Below, one piece after another: positions 16,160 through 33,935 of a DNA stretch of 64,000 bases. Made by a program: the position numbers and the translations under genes. Under the pieces are notes generated by a model, which saw nothing but the letters and a program-made list of their open reading frames with translations, made no database searches and was not told where the DNA came from. The stretch's first letter is position 1. Each line of letters opens with the position of its first letter. The DNA comes from Acidobacteriota bacterium (GTDB taxonomy: Bacteria; Acidobacteriota; Terriglobia; Bryobacterales; Bryobacteraceae), in NCBI GenBank assembly GCA_017307505.1, contig JAFKEE010000046.1, positions 1 to 64,000 of the forward strand. Direction: 5' to 3'.

Positions 16160-17707
16160 CTAATTGGACTCTTCCGAAACTTCAATCCCGTTCACGCAGG
16201 CCATTCCTTCCACCGGCACGAAGGTGAGGACGATCTTTCCCTGGGCCGTGGGACGGACTCCGGAGAAGACGCGGTCCAGCGGCCGGCCTTCCCCGCCCGC
16301 TTCTCTCATGATGTCGAAGTTCCTCAGCAGCGCGACCCCGTTGCAGTAGACGTCGAAGACCCGGCTGCCTGGCCCGCCGACGCCCGTATTGTGCGGCCCG
16401 TAATGGCCCTCGTTGAATTTCAAAGTGACGCGATAGCGCCCGGCCGCCACCGGGATCGAATAGGTAAAGTGCCCCCACCGCTCACTGGCGTAGAGCGCCA
16501 CATCGGGCTGGATGGAATTGCCGGCCTGCGCGGGGTTCGTATTGCGAACCAGCGCGTTGCCGCCCAGGAAATAGGAATCGGCCTGCCACTGTTGTCCGGT
16601 GGAGTCCTGCCACGCGGAAGTCCAGCCGGCTCGGATCCGGATAGGCCGGATCTTACCGGAACCGCTCGGCAGCAGTTCGATGGCGCTGAGCATGGCCGTT
16701 CCCCTTTGCGGTGCGAAGCTCAGATGCAGCAGGCCATCCTGGGCCGGAGTGATATCGCGAAAGATGCGTTCGTCGGCAATGTTGGCGCCCGCCGCATCGG
16801 CCACAACGTCAAAGAAGTTGAGGATCCGAGTGCCGTTCGCCGACACCTGAAAGACGCGCTGTCCCTCTCCGCTGGATTCGGCGCTGATCAGGTCCGACAG
16901 ACCGGTCTCCGCGAAATGCAGATGGAGTTCGTACCGGCCCGGTGCCAGCGGAATATCGTACCGGAAATCACCCTGCCGCATGTGCCGGTAGATGTCGGGA
17001 TCCAGGGTGCGAAAAACCTTTTCCGCGGGGCGCACGAAAACCGTGCCGCCGGAGAAGAATCGGTCCGGCCCCCAGGCGCGGCCGCTGCGGTCGACGTAAG
17101 CGTTGTTGGAGCCGACGATGATCCTCACTTCTCCGCCGGTCGCGGCGGCGGCGGGCGGTGGCATAGCCTTGGCGGCGGTGCGCGCCTCGGACGTGCCGTT
17201 CATCGTCGGGCCCCATCGCCAGATCGCGATGCCTGCGGCCAGGATCAGCAGTACCAGTCCGCCGGCAATCGCCAGGCGAGGCAGACGTTTCGGTTCGGCC
17301 TCGATTTCCGGTTCTGCCGGGGGTGCTTCCCACTTGAACTCCACCCGGTACGAGCCCGGCGGCAGTTCAATCCTGACCGGATGCGCTGAGCCGTTCTCCG
17401 AGTGGTACTGCTGGGCGAGCTTCTTCCGGATCTCGTTGGCGGTGACGCGGACGATGGTGTGCTGGCCAGGGTCGAAAGCCGGTGGCAACTGGAACAGATC
17501 CACGCCGATGGAGCGTTCCTTCAACGCGTCACCGGGGCCGGTGAGCGTCTGCTCGACCACGTGCTTGAGAAAGTCCCTGCAACGTTTGCTGTTGCGGAAC
17601 GCGGGGCTCTCCAGCAGGCGGTTGAGTTCCGTCCGGACGGCCTGCTGTGCCGGCTCGCTGAGCCCTGTCCCTGAGGTTTCATCCATGCGCTGGTCTGGGC
17701 GAATCAT
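16160..17707 (-). CDS. Transmembrane winged-helix regulator with two periplasmic malectin domains
   Basis: 515 residues when started at MIRPDQRMDETSG; the frame is open to 17887 but that part lies in promoter sequence, and Met at 17686 is an alternative. Domains: a predicted OmpR/ToxR-like winged helix at about 15-125 (FLKHVVEQTL, LKERSIGVDLF, IVRVTANEIRKKL, IELPPGSYRVEF); one membrane helix at about 143-166 (LAIAGGLVLLILAAGIAIW); and two malectin-type beta-sandwiches at about 193-355 and 362-512, each with the FF/YF-SGG...Y.H/ERWG.F.Y..P...GRY...L.F.E pattern and GxRVFxV core. Malectin domains bind glucose-type disaccharides. The arrangement suggests a ToxR/CadC-like one-component sugar sensor. 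It has a paralogue at 32406-33935. DNA binding is inferred. Confidence 0.7.
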   Translation of the reverse strand: MIRPDQRMDETSGTGLSEPAQQAVRTELNRLLESPAFRNSKRCRDFLKHVVEQTLTGPGDALKERSIGVDLFQLPPAFDPGQHTIVRVTANEIRKKLAQQYHSENGSAHPVRIELPPGSYRVEFKWEAPPAEPEIEAEPKRLPRLAIAGGLVLLILAAGIAIWRWGPTMNGTSEARTAAKAMPPPAAAATGGEVRIIVGSNNAYVDRSGRAWGPDRFFSGGTVFVRPAEKVFRTLDPDIYRHMRQGDFRYDIPLAPGRYELHLHFAETGLSDLISAESSGEGQRVFQVSANGTRILNFFDVVADAAGANIADERIFRDITPAQDGLLHLSFAPQRGTAMLSAIELLPSGSGKIRPIRIRAGWTSAWQDSTGQQWQADSYFLGGNALVRNTNPAQAGNSIQPDVALYASERWGHFTYSIPVAAGRYRVTLKFNEGHYGPHNTGVGGPGSRVFDVYCNGVALLRNFDIMREAGGEGRPLDRVFSGVRPTAQGKIVLTFVPVEGMACVNGIEVSEESN

Positions 17708-17754
17708 AACATAACGCTGCGGGCACAACGTAAGGGTTGCTAACAGCCGCCGGT

Positions 17755-17769
17755 AACCGTTAAACGGTT
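17755..17769. promoter_or_regulatory. Perfect dyad AACCGTT-A-AACGGTT
   Basis: A perfect 7+1+7 palindrome lies 48 bases upstream of the malectin-regulator start (17707) and 224 bases upstream of the divergent esterase start (17993). Its position in this divergent promoter region makes it a good operator candidate, possibly for the regulator itself. Confidence 0.45.
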
Positions 17770-17992
17770 CACTTCGGCCGGTTTGCTTCGACCCCAACGT
17801 GAAGATTCCACGAGGATTGAACAGGATATACAGTACCAAACCTAACCCTGACCGGATTTGCGTGATAGCCTGCTTCCAGACTTCCACAGGGGTCCCCCGC
17901 TCTTGGTCCAGCGCCAGCGCAACGATCAGCGACGGTGTGGAAGTCGCATGTTACACGTCGGGTTTCCGGCCGACGAATGGAGATACTTGACC

Positions 17993-32236: not shown

Positions 32237-32390
32237 GGCATCTCCCTCTGCTGCGCAATCCAGTGCGCGAATTGAGTAGTGCGAAGTTAAAGGAACCGCG
32301 GGAGGGAGAGCAAGATGTCGCTGCTAGTGGAAGCAGGTAGCGCTGGTTAACGACAGAACTCGTTTGGAATCAGTGTGGTTACAGAGGGGT

Positions 32391-32414
32391 GAGAAGTGGC
32401 TACAGTCACTTCTC
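32391..32414. promoter_or_regulatory. Perfect 8-bp inverted repeat at the end of the second malectin regulator
   Basis: GAGAAGTG (32391-32398) pairs with CACTTCTC (32407-32414) over an 8-base loop, overlapping the regulator stop codon. It lies 155 bases before the TonB-receptor start. It could attenuate transcription between the two genes or be an operator. Confidence 0.35.
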
Positions 32415-33935
32415 GGGTGTTAACTCCAGCGCGTTGACAGCGGCGTACTGGACGACAGGCTCGAAGGTGACGTCGATGCGGCCCTGGGCATTGGGCACGA
32501 GCCCGCGAAACACTTTCTCGATACTGCGGCGTTCGCCGGCTTCCTTAAAGATCTCGAAGTGGTGGAGCAGCGTCGAGCCGCCGCAGAGCACATCGAAGAC
32601 CCGGCTGCCGGGTCCGCCTTTGCCACGATTGTGGGGACCGAAGTAGGTCTCGGCAAAGAGAAGCCGCAGCCGGTAGCGGCCGGGAGGGACCGGGAAGCGG
32701 TAGGTGAAGTTGCCGTAGCGCTGCGACAGAAACAGTTCGGGATCCTGGGTTCCGCTGACGGTTTCGCCATCGGAGATCTGGCGACCGCCGGTGAAGTAGC
32801 GGTCCAGTTCCCACAGGTTTCCTTCGTGGTCTGTGAAGTTCGCGTTCCGGGTGAAGATCCGGATGGGGAGGGGACGGCCGGTATTGTTTGGGATCACTTC
32901 AATGGCATTCAACCAGGCTCCGGAGAGAATGGGCTTGAAGTCGAGCGTGAGGAAGCCGTTCTCCGGCGAGACATTCGTGAAGGCGCGAATGTCGGCCGTG
33001 TTTGTGCCACCGGCGTCGGCAGCGATGTCGAAAGAGGACAGAAGCGGCTGGCCGTTCAGCAGGACATCGAAGATCCGGCGATTCTCGACCCCATCCCCGA
33101 ATTCCGTTGGAAGGAAGATGACTTCAGAGAAGTACAGCCGCAGGTCGTACTTGCCGGCCGGGAGCGGGACGCGGTAGGAGAAGCTGCCGAAACGGAAGCT
33201 GCGGAAGTAGAGCTGATCCGGCGCCCAGCGGATGGTCCGGACGGGGACTCCCATCTCCTGGCCTCCGAACTGCCAGTGGTTTTGCTCGCCCCCGGAGAAG
33301 TACCGGTCGCCGGACCATTCCACGCCAAAGCGATCCACGGACCGTTCGGTGGACGAGCCCGCAAGGATTCGGACGGGCCGGGGTATGCCGCCGCCGGGCA
33401 GGGTGTCGCGATCGGCGGAAGTTTGTGGGGGCGGCGAGGACGTGGCCTTCTGGCTGCGGGACGGCAGGAGCAGGATTACCAGCACTGCTGCCAGCATCAC
33501 GGAAGCCGCGAGGCAGGCGACCATGACGCGTTTCCCCCATCGCTTCGGCGGGACGGCCGGGCTGTCGCAGGGGAGATGCTCCGGGGCTGGGAGCGCGGGC
33601 TCGAACTCGGGTTGGTAGGTGCCAGCCGGAATCACGATGCGAAGGGTTTGGGATGCTCCTTCGATCGCGTAGTAGTTCCGCAGACGCTTGCGCAGGCGGG
33701 ACACCTCGACCCGGACGACGGAGTCGCGTTTCTCGCCAAAGCTTTCGCTGCGGCCGTAGACGTCGGTCGCGATGCTGAATTCCTTGATCTCGTGGAAGCG
33801 GCCTTCAAAGGTCTTTTCGCAGAGATATTTCAGAAGTTTGGCAAGGGCCGGCGCCCTTGAAAACTCCTTGGAATCCAGAACTGCGCTGAGGGCAGCTCTT
33901 CGCTCTTCCAGCAGAATCGCCGCGTTGGATGTCAT
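32406..33935 (-). CDS. Transmembrane winged-helix regulator with two malectin domains, paralogue 2
   Basis: 509 residues from MTSNAAILLEERRAAL with GGGGCT upstream; the open frame extends to 33986. Same layout as 16160-17707: winged-helix-like region at about 5-115 (LAKLLKYLCEKTF, IKEFSIATDVYGRSESFGEK, VVRVEVSRLRKRLRNYY, IVIPAGTYQPEF), a membrane helix at about 136-157 (VMVACLAASVMLAAVLVILL), and two malectin domains at about 182-345 and 350-505 (DRYFSGG, GSFSYRVPLPAGKYDLRLYF, YGNFTYRFPVPPGRYRLRLLF, GPGSRVFDVLC). It lies directly upstream of the TonB receptor on the same strand, so it probably senses the sugar that the receptor imports. Regulator function is inferred. Confidence 0.7.
   Translation of the reverse strand: MTSNAAILLEERRAALSAVLDSKEFSRAPALAKLLKYLCEKTFEGRFHEIKEFSIATDVYGRSESFGEKRDSVVRVEVSRLRKRLRNYYAIEGASQTLRIVIPAGTYQPEFEPALPAPEHLPCDSPAVPPKRWGKRVMVACLAASVMLAAVLVILLLPSRSQKATSSPPPQTSADRDTLPGGGIPRPVRILAGSSTERSVDRFGVEWSGDRYFSGGEQNHWQFGGQEMGVPVRTIRWAPDQLYFRSFRFGSFSYRVPLPAGKYDLRLYFSEVIFLPTEFGDGVENRRIFDVLLNGQPLLSSFDIAADAGGTNTADIRAFTNVSPENGFLTLDFKPILSGAWLNAIEVIPNNTGRPLPIRIFTRNANFTDHEGNLWELDRYFTGGRQISDGETVSGTQDPELFLSQRYGNFTYRFPVPPGRYRLRLLFAETYFGPHNRGKGGPGSRVFDVLCGGSTLLHHFEIFKEAGERRSIEKVFRGLVPNAQGRIDVTFEPVVQYAAVNALELTPEK

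Follow-up and report, generated by a model that had tools for sequence, protein, structure and literature searches.

Here we describe REG1 and REG2, two proteins encoded on a window of 64,000 nucleotides from an Acidobacteriota bacterium of the Bryobacteraceae (GenBank assembly GCA_017307505.1, contig JAFKEE010000046.1, positions 1 to 64,000), each with an N-terminal winged-helix-like domain, a membrane helix and two malectin domains. We propose, with a probability of roughly 0.75, that they are ToxR/CadC-like membrane-bound one-component glycan sensors, predicted to control the neighbouring uptake and degradation genes. An earlier reading of the window, made by a model from the letters and hereafter called the sequence-only reading, had suggested such a function. 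The result that goes furthest beyond it is that the whole family of the N-terminal domain is coupled to outer-membrane barrels of the TonB-receptor type.

Architecture of REG1 and REG2 and occurrence in other genomes

The sequence-only reading placed the two proteins at 16160-17707 and 32406-33935. Both frames are open and intact on the minus strand (Table 1). Of the two possible starts of REG1, the ATG at 17686 is more likely than that at 17707, which would give a longer protein, since the starts of the orthologues L063 and L064 align with it. In agreement with that reading, which had described one membrane helix and two tandem malectin domains in each protein, PF11721 (curated cut-off 23 bits) matched REG1 with a whole-protein score of 126.5 bits (E 1.3e-36) and REG2 with 127.7 bits (E 5.4e-37), in two stretches per protein, and a single hydrophobic helix, defined by hydropathy only, lies between the N-terminal and malectin domains of each. 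In a search of the 9.39 Mb genome, REG1 and REG2 gave four separate PF11721 matches, and only one further open reading frame (ORF) was matched. This sole other malectin domain (L001, G000:C57:332376-332786) is part of a frame of 1829 amino acids (aa) with repeated extracellular-type domains.

The same layout was found in other genomes. REG1 matched at E<=1e-80 in 8 of 41 genomes and a four-row profile matched at E<=1e-60 in 9 of 396 genomes of the phylum, the own genome being included in both counts; a contig scan with REG1 added two loci, in an Acidobacteriaceae and in a Bryobacterales metagenome-assembled genome. We aligned 21 malectin regulators including L063 and L064, 20 of them different (G134 is identical to G203). 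All 21 are free of stops and align across the N-terminal domain, the helix region and both malectin domains. The hydropathy of the helix was above 1.8 in 19/21 of the aligned regulators, both window proteins among them, with weaker helices in L063 (1.66) and G385 (1.41), and a second hydrophobic stretch was seen in G024, within an over-long ORF start.

REG1 and REG2 are 36% identical, which agrees with their earlier description as a paralogous pair. A recent tandem duplication was rejected, as each protein falls in its own branch with 100/100 support in the tree of the 21 regulators, and G006 retains both around the same genes. The deeper order in this tree is tentative, as 8/17 inner branches had a support below 80.

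The N-terminal domain as a probable divergent OmpR-type winged helix

The N-terminal domain spans about 110 residues in REG1 and REG2, and a two-row profile search found 27 copies of it in this genome. PF00486 (Trans_reg_C, curated cut-off 26.2 bits) matched 10/27 copies at E<=1, the best at 1.3e-5. When the genome was searched with PF00486, copies of this family took the last three of 34 places, all below the cut-off (E 1.4e-4 to 8.9e-4). Using hhalign, we compared a profile of the 27 copies with one of 29 genuine PF00486 domains of the same genome and obtained 92.1% (E 6.4e-7), the 69 aligned columns running from the first helix to the hairpin. The highest value among 40 column shuffles was 4.5%, and reversing the profile gave 0.18%. 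Against the 16 shorter-frame PF00486 rows the value was 94%. The single PDB profile match of the domain at E<=10 was RpaA, labelled as a DNA-binding regulator (E 0.85). By sequence profile, these results support a divergent OmpR-type winged helix, with a predicted fold and a putative role in DNA binding.

Several results weigh against it. Both proteins miss the PF00486 cut-off: REG2 reached 12.4 bits (E 0.18), and nothing was matched in REG1 at E<=10. The hhalign value fell to 12.6% against the 12 long-frame PF00486 rows (617-1076 aa), and to 78% when the three nearest copies were dropped. The AlphaFold models, built on four aligned sequences (the window sequences, L063 and L064), were weak, with a predicted local distance difference test score of 46 for the full protein and 55 for the N-terminal part, and contained helices without a wing. 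A Foldseek search with the N-terminal model, to which we give little weight, had as its top match the C-terminal domain of RRA (E 0.96), which we take to be an OmpR-family regulator. The OmpR/ToxR-like winged helix of the sequence-only reading, for which comparison with PF00486 and AlphaFold had been proposed, is thus backed by the profile link and not by the Pfam cut-off or the models. The missing Pfam match and the poor models would also be expected if the N-terminal region did not bind DNA and the proteins were lectins tethered to the membrane or served the degradation machinery as scaffolds. We consider this very improbable in view of the profile-profile link with its shuffle controls, of the PF00486 matches among the copies and of the presence of the same N-terminal domain before several unrelated C-terminal parts.

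These parts, assigned by eye, consist of a membrane helix followed by a region of about 270 aa, by TPR-like repeats, by propeller-like repeats or by an ATPase-like region. Sixteen members of 407-447 aa (L008, L012, L013, L015-L017, L019, L021, L022, L024, L025 and L028-L032) carry the region of about 270 aa behind the helix; no Pfam match was found there in the four members scanned. One 184-aa copy (L011, G000:C54:31487-31816) has a membrane helix and almost nothing beyond it, and may be a sensor-less regulator or a truncated gene. For a six-member subset of the family, no relatives were found in viral contigs.

Coupling to receptor-type barrels and glycan genes

In the own genome, 13/27 copies of the N-terminal domain lie within 1.5 kb of a PF25183 barrel, for a background of 4.6% (binomial p 5e-11, treating copies as independent and ignoring contig ends). 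By contrast, this was the case for 1/31 canonical PF00486 proteins (p 0.77), compared with the same barrel list after exclusion of the three family members among the 34 matches. Within 3 kb, the counts were 15/27 and 2/31, respectively. These adjacency counts are lower bounds, with 65 of 140 first-look barrel candidates scored in the own genome and 61 of 124 in G321, and three of the 27 copies, on contigs with no listed barrel, were counted as misses. Nine of the 13 barrel-coupled copies are divergent from the receptor and four have it downstream on the same strand; eleven belong to the class of 407-447 aa, one is REG2 and one is a propeller-like member. In the distant genome G321, 9/19 copies were coupled to barrels (p 1.6e-6), and its malectin regulator adjoins a barrel outside the scored list. 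G134 has four copies, and none was within 1.5 kb of the four barrels compared out of 71 matches. Receptor coupling characterises the N-terminal family as a whole.

Both linkages that the sequence-only reading had named in the window were confirmed. REG2 lies 169 bp upstream of the receptor barrel, co-directional with it, and the barrel carries PF25183 and CarboxypepD_reg domains. REG1 is divergent from a run that is, by Pfam, CE1, CE1, carboxylesterase, GH9, CE1 and GH51-like. The linkage also recurs in other genomes: a barrel, a CE1 esterase or a GH1 adjoins 17/21 malectin regulators. The next gene is a receptor-type barrel in 11/21 (REG2 of the window and of G006, L063, G008, G016, G243, both G282 regulators, G321, G434 and G313), a CE1 esterase in 5/21 (REG1 of the window, G006, G005, G003 and L064) and a GH1 in 1/21 (G009); in G134 and G203 the barrel is one gene away. 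In the other genomes, barrels were identified by BLAST against the window receptor, at 22-30% identity unless they were close orthologues (51% in L063). A third copy of the N-terminal domain in G006 (L066:3166-3432), 36% identical to REG2, is divergent from a second receptor-like gene in the same locus, which fits the regulator-receptor pattern. In two related genomes, a 790-aa protein is encoded between the malectin regulator and the receptor gene (L119:10067-12439 and L120:10363-12735); the L119 protein had no Pfam match at E<=0.05.

Ring residues in the outer malectin domain

The C-terminal halves of both proteins, which were to be compared with PF11721 according to the sequence-only reading, scored well above its cut-off, and the PDB sequence matches of the malectin part included FERONIA and malectin. 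The di-glucose contacts proposed for Xenopus malectin in PMC7783096 are Y67, Y89, Y116, F117 and D186. Our comparison covers positions 89, 116 and 117, with Y67 and D186 outside the alignment; the numbering comes from the PDB alignment with a chain offset that presumably places the Y-F pair at 116/117, and the Y at 89 is consistent with it. In the C-terminal malectin, W/Y/F occupies position 89 in 20/21 of the proteins, W/Y/H position 116 in 21/21 and W/Y/F position 117 in 19/21. For the N-terminal malectin, positioned through its F-x-E motif, the counts are 2/21 for W/Y/F/H at 116 and 8/21 for W/Y/F at 117. Because ring residues at the di-glucose positions are kept in the C-terminal, outer domain and less often in the other, the outer domain is the likelier sugar binder of the two.

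The scarcity of a ring residue at the Y116 position in the N-terminal malectin, together with the tight coupling to receptor genes, would also suit membrane-bound transcription factors whose malectin pair binds no sugar and serves either to sense a protein partner, for example a periplasmic portion of the receptor, or for dimerisation alone. We regard this as possible and rather doubtful, as the ring residues at the Y116 and F117 positions of the C-terminal domain, and the glycan enzymes in many of the loci, speak against it.

A conserved candidate site upstream of REG1

The pattern TAAC-N9/10-TAACsGTTA was found about 70-80 bases before the start in 6/6 close REG1 orthologues (in the window, TAAC-N9-TAACCGTTA). 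L063 keeps it even though its divergent gene is a receptor and not an esterase. The palindrome at 17755-17769, AACCGTTAAACGGTT, which the sequence-only reading had singled out, is perfect in the window, G005 and G006 and imperfect in the other three aligned orthologues. The intergenic region of REG1 and the divergent esterase holds a second conserved element, GTACCAAACCTAACC; 5/6 orthologues have an unaltered core GTACCnAACCTA, and L063 has it with one change. The 15-base form has one exact match in the genome and, with one mismatch allowed, three matches compared with 12 for the backwards control. Conservation shows constraint on the candidate site and does not identify the protein that would bind it.

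Other observations count against the proposed function as a whole. The candidate-site pattern has one match in the 9.39 Mb genome and so has the backwards control pattern; rarity by itself therefore tells little and the weight is on conservation. The site is absent before REG2, before G243 and before the other regulators checked, the motif counts being based on six REG1 proteins and G243, also in the REG1 branch, lacking the site. Two of the 21 loci, G385 and G024 (at a contig end), have no adjoining barrel or sugar gene, with one G385 neighbour scanned by Pfam (amidohydrolase) and the other, like the G024 neighbour, compared with window genes by BLAST only. In addition, K/R residues flanking the helix were more numerous before it than after it in 12/21 regulators, equal in 5/21 and fewer in 4/21, which gives mild support to an N-inside topology. 

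No upstream element shared outside the REG1 group was found by the patterns tried. The region upstream of REG2 is near-identical to that of the sole available orthologue only close to the start codon, and the receptor promoter, compared in two close genomes, was too similar to inform.

A conserved site with an inverted repeat between two divergent genes is also what local repressors, freed from DNA by the glycan, would leave, and repressors often act from such intergenic positions. Among membrane-bound OmpR-type regulators like ToxR and CadC, activators predominate. On this ground we hold repression to be unlikely, and activation is the direction that we infer.

Proposed mechanism

In the proposed glycan-sensing mechanism, the divergent OmpR-type winged helix would stay in the cytoplasm and read a nearby promoter, one helix would cross the inner membrane and the two malectin domains would be in the periplasm. 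The C-terminal malectin is the probable binder of a hemicellulose-derived oligosaccharide. Once the ligand is bound, a shift in dimerisation or orientation would allow the winged helix to activate the genes next to it. Each regulator may serve mainly its own locus. The predicted targets of REG1 are the divergent run of esterase, GH9 and GH51-like genes and, through the shared intergenic region, REG1 itself; that of REG2 is the receptor just downstream.

Comparison with known systems

ToxR and CadC combine an N-terminal OmpR-type winged helix, one membrane helix and a far-side domain, and REG1 and REG2 share this layout by profile and hydropathy. They differ from them in a winged helix so divergent that it stays below the PF00486 cut-off and in a sensor made of a malectin pair. 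The mode of action would be of a known kind, the twin-malectin sensor being the new version. In the main text of a survey of transmembrane transcription regulators (PMC10269533) the word 'Malectin' occurs 0 times.

In Bacteroidota, SusR, hybrid two-component and extracytoplasmic function (ECF)/anti-sigma systems have their sensor gene near a SusC-type receptor and glycan enzymes. REG1 and REG2 resemble them as membrane sensor genes beside a receptor-type outer-membrane protein and glycan enzymes; unlike them, they are single proteins, with no histidine kinase, receiver, AraC or sigma/anti-sigma domain found by Pfam at E<=10. They share Pfam malectin domains with the malectin family (CBM57, PF11721), to which animal malectin and plant receptor kinases like FERONIA belong and in which the domain goes with a kinase or an endoplasmic reticulum anchor, whereas here it is joined across the membrane to a bacterial winged-helix-like domain.

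Among the matches listed in searches of open-licence PMC full text, which leaves most subscription papers outside, we found no malectin transcription regulator, no receptor-coupled regulator family and no receptor-to-substrate matching in Acidobacteria. We lean slightly towards a broader reading, in which the divergent OmpR-type membrane regulators that share the N-terminal domain form an undescribed Acidobacteriota family, with many members each serving a single TonB-receptor-type porin. Through them, the phylum would pair uptake receptors with substrates in a way of its own: the periplasmic sensors would be exchangeable, and the twin malectin would be the sensor type for glycans. In the most novel form of this reading, the receptor-coupled family may take the role of SusR, hybrid two-component and ECF systems.

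Acidobacteria are major soil decomposers whose genomes encode tens of receptor-type porins, the own genome having at least 65 matches to PF25183. With a one-gene sensor beside the receptor, substrates would be predictable from the sensor type, testable locus by locus. A malectin pair wired to a DNA-binding domain would, if true, be a new use of a plant and animal glycan-receptor fold, and the malectin-winged-helix regulator is a candidate part for glycan biosensors.

The locus around the regulators

As presented in Table 1, the regulators stand among glycan enzymes. The composition of the locus (GH43, CE1 esterases, GH9, GH51-like and GH54-type genes) suggests an arabinoxylan-type substrate; the GH51 label of the PF22848 protein is our assumption. 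No plug domain was among the Pfam matches of the receptor at E<=1e-3, and no regulator-family match at this threshold was found in the 26 other window ORFs scanned by Pfam.

Table 1. Positions of REG1, REG2, their domains, neighbouring genes and candidate sites in the window.
Feature	Position	Strand	Evidence or remark
MFS transporter	13209-14486	+	PF07690
GH43 with C-terminal GH43_C2, convergent with REG1	14039-16156	+	PF04616, PF17851; true start probably later than ORF start
REG1, 508 aa + stop	16160-17686	-	N-terminal winged-helix-like domain, membrane helix, two malectin domains
REG1 malectin domain 2	16271-16639	-	PF11721 74.8 bits; W/H/Y at Y89/Y116/F117 positions
REG1 malectin domain 1, membrane-proximal	16760-17125	-	PF11721 56.7 bits; placed by F-x-E motif; Gly at Y116 position
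REG1 membrane helix, residues 138-156	17219-17275	-	hydropathy 2.53
REG1 N-terminal OmpR/ToxR-like domain (predicted)	17312-17668	-	family profile match; hhalign of 27 copies
Candidate operator in front of REG1	17741-17762	.	kept in 6/6 close REG1 orthologues
7-1-7 inverted repeat overlapping candidate operator	17755-17769	.	perfect in window, G005, G006
Second conserved element	17833-17847	.	core kept in orthologues
CE1-type esterase, divergent from REG1	17858-19228	+	PF00756; in-frame ATG 17993 may be true start
CE1-type esterase	19266-20468	+	PF00756
Carboxylesterase	20446-22065	+	PF00135
GH9 with CelD_N	22108-24648	+	PF00759, PF02927
CE1-type esterase	24659-25762	+	PF00756
GH51-like alpha-L-arabinofuranosidase	25792-27972	+	PF22848
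Metallo-beta-lactamase-fold protein, after receptor	28006-28860	-	PF00753
TonB-receptor-type outer-membrane barrel with CarboxypepD_reg, directly downstream of REG2	28871-32236	-	PF25183 E 2.5e-236, PF13620
REG2, 509 aa + stop	32406-33935	-	layout as REG1
REG2 malectin domain 2	32514-32843	-	PF11721 63.9 bits; Y/Y/F at Y89/Y116/F117 positions
REG2 malectin domain 1	32919-33239	-	PF11721 60 bits; I/F at Y116/F117 positions
REG2 membrane helix, residues 139-157	33465-33521	-	hydropathy 2.98
REG2 N-terminal OmpR/ToxR-like domain (predicted)	33567-33935	-	family profile match; PF00486 E 0.18, under cut-off
CE1-type esterase, upstream of REG2	34071-35231	-	PF00756
GH43, upstream of REG2	35412-37508	-	PF04616, PF17851
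Two neighbouring GH54-type arabinofuranosidases	41750-45415, 45521-48589		each with NPCBM_assoc and Lamin Tail (LTD) domains

Upstream of the MFS gene, a frame of 584 aa (11374-13128) with no Pfam match at E<=1e-3 may be an unrecognised enzyme or a non-gene.

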